This document shows, piece after piece, positions 887 through 19,676 of a DNA stretch of 23,714 nucleotides; the stretch's first letter is position 1, and each line of letters starts with the position of its first letter. The notes beneath the pieces were generated by a model. The model was not told where the DNA came from and made no database searches. It saw only the letters and a list, made by a program, of their open reading frames with translations. The translations under genes were made by a program, and so were the position numbers. Source of the stretch: a virus; the IMG/VR virus record IMGVR_UViG_3300047510_000269, positions 1 to 23,714 of that record. The stretch is one strand, 5' to 3'.

Positions 887-3560
<2,674 letters not shown>

Positions 3561-3581
3561 GTTCGTAGTTTCCTATAATAT

Positions 3582-3589
3582 TATTTATT
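3582..3589 (-). promoter_or_regulatory. Late-promoter-like motif AATAAATA
   Basis: AATAAATA on the minus strand lies in the 42-base gap between the tip gene and the 174-aa gene. The 15-mer ATAAATAATATTATA (3574-3588) is identical to the sequence at 17733-17747 upstream of the 103-aa gene, which argues for a shared regulatory element rather than chance AT-richness. Confidence 0.55.
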
Positions 3590-3602
3590 CGTGATCGTTT
3601 TT

Positions 3603-6362
3603 TTATAGTATCGATCCTGCACTTGGTATTTTTTGTTGTGTACTTGCACTACCCGCTACGCAAGTTAAATCTGTTCCTGAATTCATATTTCTAAGATAAT
3701 ATCCAAACCCAATCAATGTGTTTGATGCCTCGCTTGCTTGTGTAATCGATACACCTAAACCTCCTAATGGATTAGTAGTATAAAAATTCATATATTGTGT
3801 TTGCAATACATTGTTACTACTATCATTGCTAAATCTTGCAAAAGGTACTAATTGAAAATCAACATTCGCTACGTCTGAAAAAAATTGAAATGATGATTCA
3901 GTAATAATCACTTCATTAGTGGTTAATTGGACATTTGATAAATTAACATCTATCAATTTATACCAACCTTGATAACTAGATGCTGAATTTGCTATATTTA
4001 AAATTGCTGATGCATTAGGTGTAAATGCTGCCGTGCTATTTGCAGCATAACCATTCGCAGTACTTGATGTACCTTGTAAATATGGATATTCATAACCTGC
4101 TGTTATTGAATAGCCAGGATATATCAATGGTACATTTCGTGTGCTAGTAGAATTAGCATAAACCGGTATTAGTAAATTTCCACCAAAATTCGCAACATCA
4201 TAATTGGTAACCACGACTGAAGTAGGCAAAAATATATTTGCAGTGTTTCCACTAGCGGTAATATCAAATCCATCACCAATAAAATTTAAACTTTTAGCAT
4301 TTGCTAATACTAAATTTCCACCTTCTGAAACATTGATACCAGTTATAAAATTGGAACTACCTACGATCGCATTAGCAGGAATGCTATTTGGTCTATAGAC
4401 ATTTCCAGGAAGACCGCCATTACCTGTATTGCCATTATAAGGTTGTATGTTGGCGCCGCCCCATGGGAAAACATTGCTTGAGCCACTTCGTCTACCTGCT
4501 GTATTGTTTCTAGCGGTAACAGACCAATATAAGTTACCTGCAGGGAGATCATTGACATCTACCGTGACTGCTGTGACGTTACCATTTGCTATATCAGGAC
4601 TTGGCGTGAATGGCACGCCATCGCTTTGTTGCACTGTGCGATATAATAGATGTGTCAATACGTTGCTGTTGTTACCATAGTTGAAATCCATGTACAACAC
4701 AAGACCTTCTTCTGGTACGCAACTATCTACTTTAAAACCTGTGATCAGTCCATCTGTGTCTGTGAAGTTAGTGATGACAGGATCGCATGGTGCTGATATG
4801 ATGTTAGGATCTTTCAGTCCTGTATTGAATGCTGGCACGAAATCTTGTACTGGATCATCGACATATACTGTGGCATTATATTCAAAAGCACGGAAACTTG
4901 CAAACAAGTTACCATTACCATCTTTTTCTTCTATGACTTCACTGACACGGAATAATTTACCATCAGGAAATCCATTATCTGCATCCCAACCATATGTCTC
5001 ATGATACACACGTATGACATCACCTGCTTCTACCTGTATACCACTATAATCAGTACGGAAACTGATGACTAGATCCTCACGGCTTTGAAACAAACGTCTT
5101 GCTGCCAAATATTTGGCTTGTACTGCGTTGTTGACTAGAGGTAGCGTGACATTCAATCTATTGATTGCTTCGTTCTGGCTCAATAAACTAGGAACGCTAT
5201 CAAATAAGTTGATGATCTGATAATCAGTTTGATCTTTTACATTGAAATTTGGATATGCGACTTCTACTTGATTGAATGTCTCGTTTAGATCGATAGGACT
5301 TATCTCAATACCACCAACAAGATTACTGCTATTGACAATGAATAGATCATTTACACTTTGAGCGTCTGGACTTTGCGTGTATGCTTTATTGATGACTACT
5401 TTCCATTTGCCTTGTAGTTCACTGTACTGTAACCAACTATCGCAACTGTCTACTAAGAATTGTAGATTATCCAAGCAATTCTGTGCTGTATCTAATGGTC
5501 CATTGATGCGATATCTTGCTTGCGAGGCACTACCGCCTCCTACAGGTGTATATGTGATAGTCTGATCACTATATTGATTTAAGTCTTGTAAACTAGCAGT
5601 ATCTATTTGACTTAAAGGTATAGCACAACCATAACGTGTGTTGGACATGTAATCTCGTATAGCAGTTCCAGGTCTATATGCACCAGTGTCAAAGCCTACG
5701 TATACTTGTTCAGTATTTCTGACTTGTGCTGTTATAGCACCTAATCCTGTAGTGCCTGCATCTGTGCTATATTTCACTACTATGATAGCAAATGCGCAAT
5801 TTGTCATAGCATCGGTGCTAGTCCAATTTGGCATGACATCATATGCGTTCTGTGTAGTGTTAGTACCGCTAGTAGCACCTGTGCTACCATTCCTATAAAG
5901 ATATATGTTTAGATATCCATTGACTCTGGTATCTATTTGTGATGGAGTAGTGCTATTATTGACTAATTGTGTTACTTTAGTAGTGCCACCTGAGCCGTCA
6001 CTGCCAAATGTCACTAATTTACCATCATAATAGATATCACCATAACTTATAGTACCATTATCAGTTTTTTCTGCTAATGCTACAACATAATACATGGTCT
6101 TTTGATCAGGTGTCAGATAAGCGTCTATGATGCTACCACCTAAGAACGCACTACCATAAACTACAGGTATCTTGTTATCTGTTGCTGGTGGCAATTGCAC
6201 ACGACCACCGCCATCGCCACCTGCGGCTGCTTTTTTCATGGCACGTTTTGCCAATAATCTGCTCACACCAATGCTTAATGCTGTGGTGACAACGAATTTT
6301 ACTACAGCGGCTACTGTGATTTTTGCGGCTACTGCGGCTACGAATGCGACTACTGGTGCCAT
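3603..6362 (-). CDS. gpJ-like central tail tip / host-specificity protein, 919 aa
   Basis: Large tail-tip hub protein, probably a trimer that closes the tail tube and carries fibres. Residues 1-40 are unusually hydrophobic (AFVAAVAAKITVAAVVKFVV), followed by a basic Lys/Arg stretch. This may be a membrane-interacting or core-packing segment, as in other tip proteins. Residues 60-110 (IPVVYGSAFLGGSIIDAYL) open the J-like region. Residues about 400-500 (AARRLFQSREDLVISF, GIQVEAGDVIRVYHE, FRVSEVIEE) match the lambda J/TipJ pattern of a GDVI strand followed by an RV strand. Residues 520-630 look like an FN3-type beta domain (LYWSVTARN). Residues 686-712 resemble a segment of the neighbouring fibre. 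It follows the GNAT gene with a one-base gap after its stop. Family assignment is good; the exact domain borders are inferred. Confidence 0.82.
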   Translation of the reverse strand: MAPVVAFVAAVAAKITVAAVVKFVVTTALSIGVSRLLAKRAMKKAAAGGDGGGRVQLPPATDNKIPVVYGSAFLGGSIIDAYLTPDQKTMYYVVALAEKTDNGTISYGDIYYDGKLVTFGSDGSGGTTKVTQLVNNSTTPSQIDTRVNGYLNIYLYRNGSTGATSGTNTTQNAYDVMPNWTSTDAMTNCAFAIIVVKYSTDAGTTGLGAITAQVRNTEQVYVGFDTGAYRPGTAIRDYMSNTRYGCAIPLSQIDTASLQDLNQYSDQTITYTPVGGGSASQARYRINGPLDTAQNCLDNLQFLVDSCDSWLQYSELQGKWKVVINKAYTQSPDAQSVNDLFIVNSSNLVGGIEISPIDLNETFNQVEVAYPNFNVKDQTDYQIINLFDSVPSLLSQNEAINRLNVTLPLVNNAVQAKYLAARRLFQSREDLVISFRTDYSGIQVEAGDVIRVYHETYGWDADNGFPDGKLFRVSEVIEEKDGNGNLFASFRAFEYNATVYVDDPVQDFVPAFNTGLKDPNIISAPCDPVITNFTDTDGLITGFKVDSCVPEEGLVLYMDFNYGNNSNVLTHLLYRTVQQSDGVPFTPSPDIANGNVTAVTVDVNDLPAGNLYWSVTARNNTAGRRSGSSNVFPWGGANIQPYNGNTGNGGLPGNVYRPNSIPANAIVGSSNFITGINVSEGGNLVLANAKSLNFIGDGFDITASGNTANIFLPTSVVVTNYDVANFGGNLLIPVYANSTSTRNVPLIYPGYSITAGYEYPYLQGTSSTANGYAANSTAAFTPNASAILNIANSASSYQGWYKLIDVNLSNVQLTTNEVIITESSFQFFSDVANVDFQLVPFARFSNDSSNNVLQTQYMNFYTTNPLGGLGVSITQASEASNTLIGFGYYLRNMNSGTDLTCVAGSASTQQKIPSAGSIL

Positions 6363-13237: not shown

Positions 13238-14143
13238 TTAGGCCTGGAGAATATTGATCGCTCCGCCACGACGCTTATCGGCTACACCTGCACCCATATA
13301 AGCAAGACCTGTCAACCACATCTGCAAGCCACCTGGCTTCTCACCCATCTTGATCTGCAAGCCTTCTTTGAGAACTGTGAAGATCGCAGTCTCGTGGAAG
13401 TAACCACCAACAAGCACTGGGCTAGTTGACAATTGACCAAGCATAACGCGGTTTGCACCTGACAAGAATGTAGTGAAGATCACTGCGCAACCATATACTG
13501 ATTCGATGCGACCTGTTGACAACAATTCGTTACCAAGAGCAGATAGGTTTGAACCACCTGATTGTGATACAGCACCACCTGTCAATTCAGCAAGCATACG
13601 ATTCAATGAAGAACCATCTTGTCCTGCTGGAGTTGCAGATACAACTGCGGCGTCACCATTGCTATCCAATACGATGATTGGAGTGCCTGGCAAGCGAGCG
13701 ACTTTGTAGTTCTGCTTGACGTTACGTACTAACTGTAGTACGCTGTTTGCTGTGAAGCCATCAGTCCAACCTGCAGTAGTAGCAGGAAGACCAGCCTGCA
13801 CCAACTCCATTGCACCTAACTCTAATGGACGAGCAAAGCCGTCTGCTGGAGTTGGTGAATAGTTAGTGTTGCCTGGTGTTGCCTTGAATGATAAGAAAGC
13901 CTGACATACACGGATGTCAACCTTTTCACCATATGACTCACCAAGTTCAGCACCTAATGTTGCGGCTAATTCGAATGAAGTAGTCCATGCGTAGAATACG
14001 TCAAACGCTGTTGCGGCAACTGCTGGTGTTGCTGTGATTGAACCTTGACCCAATGCAGGATTCTGCTCGACAGCCAATGGTGATGGGCCAAAGCCGTCGC
14101 CACTGCTTGATCCAGCAGGATTATAATCCTGATATGTAATTGG
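13238..14143 (-). CDS. Major capsid protein, exon 2 (residues 55-355)
   Basis: This is the 3' exon of the split capsid gene. From 14143 it reads PITYQDYNPAGSSSGDGFG, in frame with the long ORF that continues to the stop at 13238, giving 301 residues. The only start candidate for a shorter product is TTG at 14077, with no convincing ribosome site. Joined to exon 1 it gives VPNFA-PITYQDYNPAG without any gap, a normal capsid N-terminal arm. The total is 355 aa, typical of an HK97-fold shell protein. Later segments such as LVGGYFHETAIFTVLKEGLQIK fit capsid beta structure. Its position after the scaffold and before the neck gene supports the call. Expression requires RNA splicing of the 263-nt intron. 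Confidence 0.88.
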   Translation of the reverse strand, partial: PITYQDYNPAGSSSGDGFGPSPLAVEQNPALGQGSITATPAVAATAFDVFYAWTTSFELAATLGAELGESYGEKVDIRVCQAFLSFKATPGNTNYSPTPADGFARPLELGAMELVQAGLPATTAGWTDGFTANSVLQLVRNVKQNYKVARLPGTPIIVLDSNGDAAVVSATPAGQDGSSLNRMLAELTGGAVSQSGGSNLSALGNELLSTGRIESVYGCAVIFTTFLSGANRVMLGQLSTSPVLVGGYFHETAIFTVLKEGLQIKMGEKPGGLQMWLTGLAYMGAGVADKRRGGAINILQA

Positions 14144-14406
14144 CTTTTGTGTTGATTAGAGTTCGTTACTCTCTAACTCTGCTTTCGCAGACTGTATATT
14201 TCTATACAGATCAGACTATATCTTGATCTATTTCTAGATCCTGGGTACTTCGTGTCACTTGACACTACGAGAAACTACTCTCTAGTCGTTGAACCTTCAT
14301 CTTTCGATGCTCGGCTGCTGATTGTCTTTGCCTTTACGCAGTAAGATGTTCCAGCAATTCTCCCAGTTTTCATTATAATATTGCTATTATAAGCGCCCCA
14401 AAATTA
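14144..14406 (-). ncRNA. Group I self-splicing intron (subgroup IA-like, 263 nt) in the capsid gene
   Basis: All group I core elements are present in order on the minus strand. P is AATTGCTGGAAC (about 14348-14359). Q is AATCAGCAGCCGAGC (14309-14323). R is GTTCAACGACTAGA (14281-14294). S is AAGATATAGTCT (14213-14224). Helices read by eye: P1 CGCU/GGCG with the U-G splice pair; P10 UUGG/CCAA, contiguous with the P1 guide; P2 with a GCAA loop (14373-14392); P3 CTGGG/CCCAG (14362-14366 with 14241-14245); P4 GCTG/CAGC; P6a CATC-GAAA-GATG; P7 GACTA/TAGTC; P7.1 GAGA/TCTC; P7.2 GTGTC/GACAC; P8 GATCTA-GAAA-TAGATC (14225-14240); P9-type hairpins with GAAA loops (14192-14209, 14179-14190). The last base is G (14144). 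The presence of P7.1 and P7.2 suggests subgroup IA. There is no internal ORF. The unspliced RNA would stop at TAA 14404-14406. Confidence 0.95.
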
Positions 14407-14568
14407 AGCGAAGTTCGGTACCAAATACTGATTACCCTGGTTAGGGGCAACCACCTGTGTGAACTCTACGAGTCCTGTGCTTTCGTGCATTGCACGTAAA
14501 GCGAAGTTTGCGATGGCAGTTGTGAAGCCGTCTGCTTCATTCTGTCCACCACCTAGTACGTATGCCAT
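14407..14568 (-). CDS. Major capsid protein, exon 1 (residues 1-54)
   Basis: This is the 5' exon of the capsid gene, 54 codons from ATG 14568, with an optimal AGGAGA ribosome site six bases upstream. It reads MAYVLGGGQNEADGFTTAIA and, further on, VEFTQVVAPNQGNQYLVPNFA. The phrase VVAPNQGN-x-Y-x-VPNF is typical of the N-terminal arm of environmental phage capsid proteins. It ends in GCT at 14407, exactly at the predicted 5' splice site. Without splicing, translation would end one codon later at TAA. It begins 22 bases after the scaffold gene stop. Confidence 0.9.
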
Positions 14569-14589: not shown

Positions 14590-15372
14590 TTATACAATTT
14601 TTCTAGATGCTGTGCTGACACTCGCACTAACGCTTGCACCTTTCAGTCCTACTCTCTTGCCTAAGCCCATCTTGCTTGCCCATGCATTGAAGGCAGCAGG
14701 ATCTTTGCTATAGTCTGGAATAGATTCTGTAGGCGCACCTGCGAAATTGCTTTGTCCAGGGCGCAGTCCAGATCCGCTTGACATCTGACCTTGCTTGAGT
14801 AATTTAGGATTACCCTGAGCAACTTCTTCTACCAAGCCTCTCAATGAAAGTGGATTACCGTCCATGCCGTAACGTTCTTGACCCTTCGAATTGATGATAG
14901 AATAACTGCCATCACGCTTGAACTGTAGATTTGCCTTGATCTTTTGCAATGCATAATCTTGTAAATCAGGATCGAATCTATCGCCCATGTTGCGTAATAT
15001 TTCAGTATCTAACTCTTTCATACGTAATGCTCTATCTTTTTGAGCGAGATCACGCTGTAGTCTCATGAACTGATCACGTAAGTCGGTATTGTCATCACCT
15101 GCTTCACGCCCCATGCGTGATTCTATTGCTGGTTCTGACTCCACTGGCTGTGCGTTGCCACCGGAACGTTGACTTGAAGTGCGTGCCACATATGCTAACG
15201 CTGCCTCTACACTTTCAAAATTCTGTCCGCTTGCCTGTGACAATGCGTTAAGAATAGAACTTGTAGTGCTTTTACGGATAGCACCTGGATTCACTTTACC
15301 ATCAGCGGCATCATTTGTACCCTGTTCTGCTTCAGGGGCTGTATCGTTGCCAACGAATTGATTTTCTAACAT
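14590..15372 (-). CDS. Capsid scaffold-like protein, 260 aa
   Basis: Probable scaffolding protein that directs prohead assembly and is later lost. It has a polar, acidic N-terminus (NDTAPEAEQGTNDAADGK) and a charged helical or coiled-coil stretch at about 97-130 (LRDQFMRLQRDLAQKDRALR, then KELDTEILRNMG). The C-terminal third is Gly/Ser-rich with a basic end (KRVGLKGASVSASVSTASRK), as expected for contact with capsid. It lies between portal and capsid genes, the canonical scaffold position. No separate prohead protease is found beside it, and no Ser/His catalytic pattern is seen in it. It starts at ATG 15372 with AAAGGA upstream. Confidence 0.75.
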   Translation of the reverse strand: MLENQFVGNDTAPEAEQGTNDAADGKVNPGAIRKSTTSSILNALSQASGQNFESVEAALAYVARTSSQRSGGNAQPVESEPAIESRMGREAGDDNTDLRDQFMRLQRDLAQKDRALRMKELDTEILRNMGDRFDPDLQDYALQKIKANLQFKRDGSYSIINSKGQERYGMDGNPLSLRGLVEEVAQGNPKLLKQGQMSSGSGLRPGQSNFAGAPTESIPDYSKDPAAFNAWASKMGLGKRVGLKGASVSASVSTASRKIV

Positions 15373-15389: not shown

Positions 15390-15782
15390 TTATACGTAAC
15401 AAACGAGTTTTTGTTTTGCTCTAAATCTAAGTTGCCCTAATCGATTTGCCAAACATCTTTCAGTACTATGTTTGACACCTTTAAGGCTATTAGATTTTTT
15501 CGCAATTGTTTCGGGTGATTGTTTAGTCCCTCTAAACTTATCACCTGAATTCTTTACACATTCATTTATATAGACATTATCAATGCTATATGGGCCTGTG
15601 TCGCCTTTTCTGCTCATGCAATATTTACCCTTACCTCTACCACGCAATTCCCATTTGCCTGATTGTTCCCATACTTCAGACCACTCTTCGTATGTCAACA
15701 ACCATTCAATCTTTCTATGTTTTGCCATGCATTTCTGTCTGACAAATATAGATTTTTTTTGATCACCGTGATGATAATTCAT
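15390..15782 (-). CDS. NUMOD3-type free-standing homing-endonuclease-like protein, 130 aa
   Basis: A small, very basic protein inserted between portal and scaffold genes. Residues 84-118 carry the NUMOD3 DNA-binding signature (GTKQSPETIAKKSNSLKG, then VKHSTERCLANRLGQ). This module accompanies GIY-YIG and HNH homing endonucleases. The N-terminal half has YEEWSEVWEQSGKWELRGRG and CMSRKGDTGPYSIDNVYI. The second is a conserved Arg/Asp/Asn core seen in small phage proteins of this type, but not a standard HNH or GIY-YIG motif. The start taken is ATG 15782, one base after the portal stop. ATG 15728 (MAKHRKIEW) is an alternative that would begin at the conserved part. Its composition differs from the flanking virion genes, suggesting a mobile insertion. 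Confidence 0.72.
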   Translation of the reverse strand: MNYHHGDQKKSIFVRQKCMAKHRKIEWLLTYEEWSEVWEQSGKWELRGRGKGKYCMSRKGDTGPYSIDNVYINECVKNSGDKFRGTKQSPETIAKKSNSLKGVKHSTERCLANRLGQLRFRAKQKLVCYV

Positions 15783-15783
15783 A

Positions 15784-17388
15784 TTAGCGACCTGTATTGA
15801 TTCCTTGCAACTGAGTTGCTATGGCTTGGTTCGTGTAAAAACTCTGACCTGTGTAAGTCACAGGCGTGCCGATGCCGTCACCATTGACATCATATCCTTC
15901 AGCACTGTCATACTCTGTGTCATCGCCATAGATCGGTTCGTTTTCACCAAAATCTTCTGGTGTCACTACTTGATCAGCGAGGTCACGACTGTATACTGCT
16001 TGATTATCTTGAGTCATCAAATCTTTGACCACAGGATCTGTGATCGTATCTATGTATGCTTGCTCATATTGCGGGATCTTTTCAGCAGGAGCAAGCATGC
16101 CGATAATCTCTTTGACTATCAAGTTGTCGATTATCGGATTGTTCTGCACTAGACTCTTTGCCTGACCCATTAATGCGAGTCTATAATTTGTGTCATGTGC
16201 TTCATAATCTGTGTTGTAATGTACTTCACCTGCCCAACGTACTCCCATGAAACGTGCGGCATAAGTGAATATTAATTCTTCAGCGATCTCCATCAAGCGG
16301 GCTTTGCTCTTTGCGAGTCTGTGTAATGTTTTTCGTTCCTCTATGATGGCTACGCCACTTGCGATCTGGTTCTTGCTGTTACGCAATCCACCTAGACCAG
16401 TCAATGCTTCGATCTGTTCTAATATTTCACGCTGTCTGCTAGTGACTTTATCGACATCACCAGTATCGACAGGAATAGTCTCTACTTGACCTTGACTTGC
16501 ACGAACGATGGCGCCTGCGTGTACAGGAATCGCTACGCCTTTATCTGCACGAATGATAGTCTTAGCGAATTGCACTGATGTATATGCTTCGCATTCTAAT
16601 TTATAATGTTCTCTCTGTGCGTCACTTGCTGAGTCGATATCACTCACGCCGATATCGATTGTTCTTGGATCACGACGACCATATGCTATGAAGCCTGGTA
16701 TTGCCATGCCTGCAGGATAAACACCTTCGCCAATCTCTTCTACATCTTGTTTGCTTATGTTCTTACCAACACGATAACTCTTCCAATAACTTGGATATTC
16801 ATTTGTACCAAGATGATAACATTTTAGATAATAATTTTCTTTGTCTTCGGCTTCTAGTATCTTTACATGCTTGACCATTGGCTTGCCGCCGAACCATTCC
16901 CATTCCCAATTCCATACGTTCAATGGATTGATGGCAACAACATATGGTCTGCCAAGATTGCCTTCGTCTGCTTTAGGCATATCGACAAAGATCCAACAAT
17001 GTCCATAGATGCTAGTGAGATCGCCCACTTGTTCCATGAACGCATCTAATGATCTATTTTGTAGATCGGCATCTAACAACAATAATTCTGCCCACTCAGT
17101 GTTCTTAGGATCGATATAAGCACCTGTTGGCGTGCAGAATTTTAATTCACGTTTCACTCCCGGCTCGAACAACACATCGTTGATAGTGTCAACAATGTAT
17201 CTGCAAATAGGCTGTGCGACTGTGTTGTTTACTAGATCGATGTAAAGATTGCTATCTTCGCTTGGGCGCTTTTTACGAACATATGTCTTGAATATCTGTC
17301 CACCAAGATAGGCGTATTGATAAGCAAGCATCTGTTCATAGATAGCATTGTATATGGGACTCTTGTGTGTTAGTTCGTGTGCATTCAT
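15784..17388 (-). CDS. Portal protein, 534 aa
   Basis: Dodecameric ring at the packaging vertex. Length and synteny (after terminase, before scaffold and capsid) are right. The sequence shows the portal layout: N-terminal PIYNAIYEQMLAYQYAYLGG and ICRYIVDTINDVLFEPGVKR; a wing region with DLTSIYGHCWIFVDMP and AINPLNVWNWEWEW; a stem/crown helix region DVDKVTSRQREILEQIEALTG, followed by SKNQIASGVAIIEERKTLHR and LMEIAEELIFTYAARFMG. The acidic C-terminus (EDFGENEPIYGDDTEYDSAEG) is likely flexible. It starts at ATG 17388 with TAGGA upstream and is followed one base later by the NUMOD3-type gene. Confidence 0.9.
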   Translation of the reverse strand: MNAHELTHKSPIYNAIYEQMLAYQYAYLGGQIFKTYVRKKRPSEDSNLYIDLVNNTVAQPICRYIVDTINDVLFEPGVKRELKFCTPTGAYIDPKNTEWAELLLLDADLQNRSLDAFMEQVGDLTSIYGHCWIFVDMPKADEGNLGRPYVVAINPLNVWNWEWEWFGGKPMVKHVKILEAEDKENYYLKCYHLGTNEYPSYWKSYRVGKNISKQDVEEIGEGVYPAGMAIPGFIAYGRRDPRTIDIGVSDIDSASDAQREHYKLECEAYTSVQFAKTIIRADKGVAIPVHAGAIVRASQGQVETIPVDTGDVDKVTSRQREILEQIEALTGLGGLRNSKNQIASGVAIIEERKTLHRLAKSKARLMEIAEELIFTYAARFMGVRWAGEVHYNTDYEAHDTNYRLALMGQAKSLVQNNPIIDNLIVKEIIGMLAPAEKIPQYEQAYIDTITDPVVKDLMTQDNQAVYSRDLADQVVTPEDFGENEPIYGDDTEYDSAEGYDVNGDGIGTPVTYTGQSFYTNQAIATQLQGINTGR

Positions 17389-17740: not shown

Positions 17741-17748
17741 TATTTATA
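17741..17748 (-). promoter_or_regulatory. Late-promoter-like motif TATAAATA
   Basis: An exact TATAAATA on the minus strand overlaps the stop codon of the HNH gene, 24 bases before the 103-aa gene. It would drive the 103-aa/portal/scaffold/capsid/neck/tube unit down to the terminator at 11660. The 15-mer ATAAATAATATTATA at 17733-17747 recurs exactly at 3574-3588. Confidence 0.6.
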
Positions 17749-18196
17749 CTTTCTTTCGCAAATACTTGCTATACTTATTAAGCATGCCTGGATAACAATG
17801 TTTATGTCTGCGGCTAAACCATGTATAATAACTCTTTTGTAAACAGTGTGGGCATTCTTTATAAGGATCATCAGGAATATGCCAATCGCTACCATATTTG
17901 TTTGCTATGCGTTCTGCTCTATCTTTTGCATTGCCATACACAAGATGATCAGGATTCACGCATATTTTGTTCATGCAGGTATGATTGATCTCTTTAGTGA
18001 TATCCATACCTTTATGTCTTGCTGATACACGATGCACGGTGATCATTTTGATATCTATACTACTGTCTTCCTTGATCATACCATATCCTGCGTTATTGAC
18101 AGGACCAGTCCATTCCCAACATTTTGTTTTGTCTAATGGTATATGTGTTCGTTTCATCAATCTATCATAGACAGGTGTTATTTTTTTTCTAAACAT
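17744..18196 (-). CDS. HNH homing endonuclease, 150 aa
   Basis: Free-standing HNH (HNH_3-type) endonuclease, expected to cut an allele lacking it and spread by repair. Residues 26-40 (CWEWTGPVNNAGYGM) and 54-90 carry the fold: H55 (VHRVSARHKG), N71-H72 and C74 (NHTC), C79, N81 and H84 (CVNPDHL), then YGNAKDRAERI. This is the standard HR...G...NH-x-C...C-x-NP-x-HL pattern, so the metal site appears intact. The C-terminus has a second Cys/His set (CPHC at 115-118, H131, H133, C134), probably a small zinc-binding DNA-contact element. It has a strong CAGGAG ribosome site before ATG 18196 and lies between large terminase and the 103-aa gene, with promoter-like motifs on both sides. Confidence 0.88.
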   Translation of the reverse strand: MFRKKITPVYDRLMKRTHIPLDKTKCWEWTGPVNNAGYGMIKEDSSIDIKMITVHRVSARHKGMDITKEINHTCMNKICVNPDHLVYGNAKDRAERIANKYGSDWHIPDDPYKECPHCLQKSYYTWFSRRHKHCYPGMLNKYSKYLRKKV

Positions 18197-18236: not shown

Positions 18237-19676
18237 TTAATATATCATGTGATCACTTTCTTCAGTGTCACCATTGATGATCTCTTCCCAACTTGGTCCA
18301 CCTGGATACAATGGGCTTTCAGGCTTGTATTTGTTTGCAGGATCACCCATGTTTGCGAAACGTCTATCCATACCAACGTACTCTGCAAAACTTTGTTCAT
18401 GTGTTATGGGGAACAAGTGATGTATGCCATAACGCAATGCATCACCAAGACCGTCTATGTGTGCATATTTTTGTTCAGTATATTTGACGAGGCGTTTGCG
18501 ACTTGCATCTTCGAAATGATATGTCTGCAATGCATCTAACAACATCTTGTCGTCGGTGCGTACTCTTAACCTATCACTGTTGATAAAAGCATTAACAGTA
18601 TTATCAGTATCACTAACAAGAGGATTGCTTTTGCGACTGTTGACAATTGTAAAACCGTATTTTTCCAATATGATACGATCTGTGATTCCGAAAGGGCTAG
18701 TTGTGTCACGATTGACTTGAGTACCTGACATGTCAATAATACTGAAGAGTCTACGCTTGGGGAAGTCTTGACGTATCGCATCAGCAATACCTTCTGTCGA
18801 GCAATCAGGTATAGCATATGATTTAAGAATCTGCATCGTGCCATTCTTTTCTCCTGGTCTTGTGACTTGTGCGACTACTGCACACATGACACGTTTGTTG
18901 AAGTCATGAAATGTATATAGATCACCACCACGATCGGTAATGTCGTCACTACAATGTTTGTGTTTGTCAAATGTATAATAGAACTGATCAGCAACACTTT
19001 CCCATGCGCATAGATAATCTTGCGCAAATTTCAATGGGCTTAATATGCGTTTTTGTTCTTCGATGTACGTTTTGTTACCTGAACGCATTTGTTCATAATT
19101 GTAGTGCCGTACGATGTACTTTTCGGGCCTTTCAAGAGCCATCTTGAATAGGTCGTACAGTGGTCCTGTGCCATTGGGCGTGGATATGACGATAAGCCTA
19201 CCTTGGCTATCTGGTTGGCCCACACTAGGACGCAAACGGTTTGTGATCTCTTGTAATGTGTCTGAGGTATATAGTGCTGCTTCGTCAGCGACCCATACAC
19301 CTACGTTGAGACCGCGTAAGTTCTCACGTTGTTCTGCACTCTTGCAACGAATGAAGACGCCGTTAGGAAATTTTATAGTCAACTCACTGTTATTGATATC
19401 GATACCATCACGTAAGTTGAAATGGTTCATGCAACTTTTCTTTAATGGTTCCCATATCAAACTCTTGATCATGGCACCTGTTGGTGCTGAATATATTATG
19501 TCTTTGTTTTTGTGATAGCGAACGTCAGTGGCAAAGATAGGCAATGCTATGCTTGCTAAGAATGTCTTTCCGCTACCAACAGGCACGATATGGATACAAT
19601 GCTTGTCACTGTCAAGCATGTCTTTGAGTAAAGTACTCTGTTCACCAAATAATGGTATATCAATCTTTGTTGGCAT
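18237..19676 (-). CDS. terL: Terminase large subunit, 479 aa
   Basis: Packaging motor ATPase plus headful nuclease that docks on the portal. ATPase: Walker A VPVGSGKT (31-38), Walker B VGVWVADE (125-132) with catalytic E132, coupling motif ISTPNG (164-169). Nuclease (RNase H-like): D258 in FHDFN, D315 in IIDMSG, D412 in GLGDALRYG, the three acidic metal ligands. The length is normal. It starts at ATG 19676 inside the small-subunit gene (17-base overlap), so translation is coupled. The gene is uninterrupted, with no intron or intein, although it is followed directly by an HNH homing gene. Confidence 0.96.
   Translation of the reverse strand: MPTKIDIPLFGEQSTLLKDMLDSDKHCIHIVPVGSGKTFLASIALPIFATDVRYHKNKDIIYSAPTGAMIKSLIWEPLKKSCMNHFNLRDGIDINNSELTIKFPNGVFIRCKSAEQRENLRGLNVGVWVADEAALYTSDTLQEITNRLRPSVGQPDSQGRLIVISTPNGTGPLYDLFKMALERPEKYIVRHYNYEQMRSGNKTYIEEQKRILSPLKFAQDYLCAWESVADQFYYTFDKHKHCSDDITDRGGDLYTFHDFNKRVMCAVVAQVTRPGEKNGTMQILKSYAIPDCSTEGIADAIRQDFPKRRLFSIIDMSGTQVNRDTTSPFGITDRIILEKYGFTIVNSRKSNPLVSDTDNTVNAFINSDRLRVRTDDKMLLDALQTYHFEDASRKRLVKYTEQKYAHIDGLGDALRYGIHHLFPITHEQSFAEYVGMDRRFANMGDPANKYKPESPLYPGGPSWEEIINGDTEESDHMIY

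Follow-up and report, generated by a model that had tools for sequence, protein, structure and literature searches.

A group IA-type intron in a phage major capsid gene and its relatives at other capsid-gene positions

The locus and its interrupted capsid gene

The window, by which we mean the whole 23,714-base stretch of DNA that was analysed, is one virus record. Its late genes lie on the minus strand in the order terminase, portal, scaffold-like gene, capsid and tail genes. The terminase large subunit gene (18237..19676, -) was recognized by a PF03237 match (E 1.8e-8), and the portal protein gene (15784..17388, -) by gene order together with a PF05133 match under the curated cut-off (E 0.0013). 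The gap between the portal and scaffold-like genes holds hnhA (15390..15782, -), a putative free-standing homing endonuclease gene that matches phrog_16521 (E 8e-25) and, weakly, the homing endonuclease family phrog_314. The gene directly upstream of the capsid gene (14590..15372, -) is called scaffold-like because of its position; family searches with it gave no match above the cut-off. An HNH endonuclease gene, hnhB (17744-18196; PF05551, E 1.1e-6), is found between a gene coding for a 103-residue protein and the terminase gene, and a predicted tail-fibre-like protein (887-3034) has collagen-like GATGATGP repeats close to the N-terminus.

The capsid gene is read in two parts on the minus strand, 14568-14407 and 14143-13238. 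The 5' exon (14407..14568, -) comprises codons 1-54 and ends in ...AACTTCGCT, and the 3' exon (13238..14143, -) contributes 301 codons and the stop in the reading frame of the joined gene. Between them lie 263 nucleotides (14144..14406, -) that an earlier note on this DNA had taken for a group I intron. Its boundaries and its claim that splicing would restore the frame proved exact: without 14406-14144, the 54 and 301 codons join into 355 with no intervening stop. As also anticipated there, mechanical ORF calling starts the second part at a TTG and thus yields a shortened capsid protein.

That the interrupted gene codes for the major capsid protein was borne out through its relatives. The window protein itself matches no family, a PDB profile search returned nothing, and the joined capsid sequence had no tblastn match in 50,697 phage records. 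The phrog_267 family ('major head protein') was matched by 20 of 24 homologues, with a best E of 7e-12. When a homologue with 94% identity was modelled, the eight top-ranking structural matches were all HK97-fold capsids (best E 0.006); we take this as support only, since the model is poor (pLDDT 54) and the matches are weak. The position of the gene after the portal and scaffold-like genes agrees with this identity. In viral contigs the joined protein has 80 relatives, most of them continuous through VPNFA-PITYQ. These supplied 75 homologues uninterrupted across the junction, 31 of them distinct, in line with the expectation that homologues would have no insertion at residue 54.

Anatomy of the intron

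The Rfam Intron_gpI model (RF00028) matches the minus strand at 14416-14192 over the full model, with 93.8 bits and an E of 2.9e-23 (threshold 50). The earlier note had predicted such a covariance-model match, which is the sole Rfam match within the window. The intron strand folds better than 200 of 200 shuffled sequences (z -3.58). We drew its core structure by hand, with helices P3, P4, P5, P6, P6a, P7, P7.1, P7.2 and P8, and aligned it on 17 related introns. Across these relatives 96.5% of the cells are paired and 21 of the 44 pairs show compensatory changes, values that none of 500 shuffles equalled. P3 pairs CTGGG (14362..14366, -) with CCCAG (14245-14241) and has compensatory changes in three of its five pairs. 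P7 (GACTA at 14283..14287, -, with TAGTC at 14218-14214) and P6 are invariant in the 17 relatives, so that covariation is silent for both helices. The hairpins P7.1 (14282-14269) and P7.2 (14265-14252), which occupy 14252..14282 (-) between P7 and P3, mark subgroup IA. Both are kept in the relatives, with compensatory changes in two of four and four of five pairs, respectively, which upholds the subgroup assigned from the letters.

The internal guide sequence UUGG-GGCG (14394..14401, -) reads as first proposed. Its GGCG part (14397-14394) pairs with CGCU of the 5' exon to form P1, with a U.G pair at the cut, and its UUGG part (14401-14398) pairs with CCAA of the 3' exon to form P10. The terminal base of the 5' exon is a U and that of the intron a G. 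In two relatives, L202 and L207, the P10 strand varies along with the 3' exon. A third one, L201, whose intron lies at codon 54 as in the window, retains just two P10 pairs, and P10 is thus not conserved across all relatives. The 263 bases contain no reading frame of note, and hence no internal homing endonuclease ORF, in agreement with the description of the intron as ORF-less.

Judged by its anatomy, this element is near certain to be a complete ORF-less group I intron, and it very probably removes itself from the capsid message. The internal guide would direct guanosine-dependent excision and exon joining, and the spliced message would code for the full-length, 355-residue capsid protein.

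Related introns in capsid genes

We scanned viral contigs irrespective of the host gene, using patterns built from the intron core only. The strict window-type pattern retrieved ten stretches, counted as 12 loci including window duplicates, and all 12 are in capsid genes. A looser pattern retrieved 43 stretches, at least 41 of them in major capsid genes, a host bias that is partly ascertained because the patterns were drawn from capsid introns. Thirty-six of these cluster with SU10_MCP/phrog_1328 (E 5.9e-91) and five with the capsid family of the window; window-type introns are thus found in SU10_MCP genes as well. In the window's own gene family they lie after codon 54 (window, L044 and L201) or codon 23 (L202 and L207). 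The members of the lineage are metagenomic contigs, with no cultured representative, and none of the phage records covers 80% of the window intron.

A second class of introns

Introns of another kind, hereafter type 2, interrupt the same capsid gene family at three other codons. A 239-base insertion follows nucleotide 116 in L036 (codon 39, phase 2; L036:1975-2213), a 231-base insertion is found at codon 45 in L077 (L077:234-464) and a 260-base insertion at codon 102 in L061/L062 (L061:4403-4662). With these taken out, the restored reading frames run for 356, 333 and 355 codons, respectively. The introns of L036, L077 and L061 are mutually related, scoring 176-186 bits with their own model versus 15 bits for the window intron, and type-2 introns are widespread in viral contigs, further ones occurring in loci L081-L198. 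Guide pairings were read by eye as AGGU/GCCU with P10 AGUU/AACU in L036, GGGU/GCCC with P10 AAU/AUU in L077, and CGAU/GUCG in L061, whose P10 is not clear.

RF00028 does not match these introns, even at E 10 for L061, and on 20 further type-2 loci it matched no type-2 intron, its one match lying elsewhere in L111. Type 2 is therefore called group I by anatomy and not by model. The 42 distinct cores have the group I core with its P7 pseudoknot and are devoid of P7.1 and P7.2; 97.4% of their cells are paired and 24 pairs show compensatory changes. Covariation amounts to 0.529 versus 0.153 after shuffling, with P7 itself invariant. The match in L111 (1380-1676, 82.1 bits) corresponds to an ordinary RF00028 intron, and the same contig contains a type-2 intron as well. 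One record, L081, harbours two type-2 introns ~270 bases apart (4-58 and 277-329, -). Long insertions in the P6 region are present in 19 of 124 type-2 matches (L141, L164, L165, L190, L193 and others), a few of them with short reading frames.

The type-2 scan gave at least 120 matches. Among those listed, the 3' exon could be read at 109 loci, 94 of which are in capsid genes, as are 55 of the 66 distinct 3' exons. The host genes belong to five capsid families, namely P22 coat (phrog_283, PF11651), phrog_1357, phrog_9953, SU10_MCP and the window's own. Among the non-capsid hosts are a P22-type portal gene (4) and a gene whose weak matches are to endonuclease VII and HTH (5). Based on where the 3' exons start, a hand count of groups among the matches listed gives roughly 25 positions, with about 7 in P22 coat, about 17 in phrog_1357 and others in the remaining families. 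Type 2 matches a single phage record, MW202674.1 (L361), in which a P22 coat gene (2691-4206), split by the intron, is annotated as two CDS separated by a spurious hypothetical protein. A search of GTDB genomes yielded just two metagenome-assembled contigs.

Changes of position and spread

Near-identical introns are found at different positions of the same gene. Those of L201 (codon 54) and L207 (codon 23) are 98% identical, and their genes 79%. Roughly the last 220 bases of the two introns are identical; what differs is the P10/guide strand and P2, with a change of CATAG/CTATG to CCTAG/CTAGG in the latter helix. Both 5' exons read AAYTTCGCT over nine bases, and the unused sites read TTCGCG (codon 23 of L201) and TTTGCA (codon 54 of L207). 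In SU10_MCP genes, the intron follows codon 29 in L216 and L234 and codon 59 (phase 1) in L238. The genes are 92.7-95.8% identical; for L216 and L238, 258 of 260 intron bases are identical in genes that are 95.8% identical. The unused first site of L238 reads GCCG instead of GCCT, and the T at its occupied site is absent from L216 and L234. Thus, the position has changed within the gene at least twice. At each occupied site the matching T accompanies the intron and is not found without it. This argues against the intron having simply inserted where a match already existed; it is compatible with DNA recombination via a short stretch of common sequence, or with selection acting once the intron was in place.

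The introns of the window and L202 are 87% identical and their genes 69%. At the first SU10_MCP site, 138 divergent pairs are alike in 95% of intron positions, in 90-91% of the nearest 15 exon bases and in about 77% of those beyond 30. This is the trace expected of co-conversion during homing, to which a conserved protein segment could add.

We estimate at about 0.9 the probability that the window contains a self-splicing group IA intron between capsid codons 54 and 55, from a lineage almost confined to major capsid genes that spreads by DNA recombination with an occasional switch of site. Such an intron would be passed from phage to phage through recombination of DNA at a site already established, presumably driven by a nuclease. 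Now and then it would shift elsewhere within the gene, to a point where a short 5' exon fits the guide. The window intron belongs to a known ribozyme class, and its assignment to a capsid-specialised, site-switching lineage, as sampled through our patterns, is well supported.

A candidate for a trans-acting mobility partner is hnhA. Its slot between the portal and scaffold-like genes is filled in the window and in the intron-bearing L207, and most intronless relatives have a 32-90 base gap there. L077 has an hnhA homologue directly behind its capsid gene, and other homologues are present in T4-like phages of Aeromonas, Salmonella and Klebsiella. Spread could then proceed by collaborative homing, as for the cyanophage psbA intron: hnhA, 1 kb upstream, would cut the intronless capsid region, and repair would transfer intron and nuclease together. 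We consider this account possible, albeit somewhat doubtful. L044, L036, L061 and L202 carry introns and have no hnhA in that slot, the intronless lineage L048-L054 does have it, no hnhA homologue was found at the SU10_MCP loci, and movement between sites is left unexplained by collaborative homing itself. The other endonuclease gene, hnhB, was rejected as a partner, since nearly every relative with the terminase-portal region in view has it, with or without the intron.

Alternatively, free intron RNA might enter the mRNA of the capsid gene, which is more abundant than any other late message, by reverse splicing at matches to four guide bases and then be copied to DNA. The absence of an ORF, the preference for the most expressed gene and the many sites with just a short common motif, such as the nine bases shared by the codon-23 and codon-54 sites, would all be accounted for. 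In its simple form, however, this mechanism needs the match beforehand, and at codon 54 the guide target CGCT is found in none of the 75 empty alleles and in all three intron-bearing ones (L044, L201 and L017, a near-identical copy of the window). As the sequences are related, the p-value of this association (1.7e-4 on distinct empty sequences) is just indicative. At codon 23, CGCT does not separate intron-bearing from empty alleles, being present in 39 of 74 empty ones. In the SU10_MCP genes as well, the matching base of the L238 site accompanies only the intron. We consider reverse splicing rather unlikely.

The capsid bias might itself be an artefact, either of descent in place in capsid genes or of a collection favouring contigs with hallmark genes, by which viral contigs are partly recognized; the patterns were derived from capsid introns, and many rows are near-duplicates. 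Nevertheless, a generic group I pattern run as a control on the same collection gave at least 120 matches. Among those listed, 110 3' exons fell into 64 clusters, which include RNA polymerase, tail sheath, terminase and DNA polymerase, and 17 of the 110 look capsid-like. The difference from this control has a p of 4e-21 even after adding ten capsids to the control, with rows that are not independent. The bias of type 2 holds on distinct 3' exons, and a distribution over five capsid families and about 25 positions is not that of descent in place. We hold such an artefact to be improbable. Lastly, although a 279-codon ORF starting at the TTG exists, it is hardly credible that the phage uses this shorter product around a degenerate, non-splicing intron, as the core, guide and splice-site bases are intact and the first 76 residues, missing from the TTG product, are highly conserved in homologues.

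Returning to capsid-specialised introns that change position, we are inclined to extend this reading to both types. There would be two small group I lineages, one of them unseen by the standard model, specialised on major capsid genes of unrelated families and moving within the gene; a possible reason is that no other RNA target is as abundant as the capsid message.

Relation to known introns and significance

Phage group I introns have generally been described in genes of replication and nucleotide metabolism, and they are thought to home to one fixed site via endonucleases. Like the window intron, T4-type and other phage group IA2 introns (td, nrdB and nrdD) have the core, the P7.1 and P7.2 hairpins and the same guide logic, but they reside in nucleotide-metabolism or replication genes, often with an ORF (PMC3984707). 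The phage intron targets named in that review are polymerases, reductases and terminases, and capsid genes are absent from its text.

The description of a capsid-gene intron as unusual in the earlier note needs qualifying, since such introns have been published (PMC3706429) and since the capsid gene is the rule within the lineage. Mycobacteriophage LittleE has a probable group I intron in its major capsid gene that is reported to splice efficiently in late infection, and it resembles the window intron in its host gene, the U ending the 5' exon and the terminal G of the intron (PMC3706429). In contrast, the LittleE intron is a single case, measures about 819 bases and contains an endonuclease ORF, whereas that of the window is ORF-less and IA-type, with relatives at several sites and in several families of capsid genes. 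Lactococcal phage Tuc2009 likewise has an intron in its capsid gene, which we know through its citation in PMC3706429. The collaborative homing system of the cyanophage psbA intron also features an ORF-less intron near a free-standing endonuclease (PMC10448857), but the association with hnhA is partial here, and the action of the nuclease conjectural. Introns of eukaryotic rRNA genes offer another parallel: a single gene with high expression houses related introns at many sites, although it is not a phage protein gene. The Rfam model has been reported to be incomplete (PMC11878797), and type 2 is in line with that.

Our literature search, of partial coverage, found no report of capsid-specialised introns. 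Single capsid introns are already published, and a capsid-specialised, site-switching lineage is a new and testable case. Capsid genes from metagenomes are in many cases reported in truncated or split form (MW202674.1 is an example), and Rfam overlooks an entire class of phage introns, type 2. How introns reach new sites is a long-standing question, for which a lineage tied to one functional gene class, with near-identical copies at different positions, provides natural experiments.
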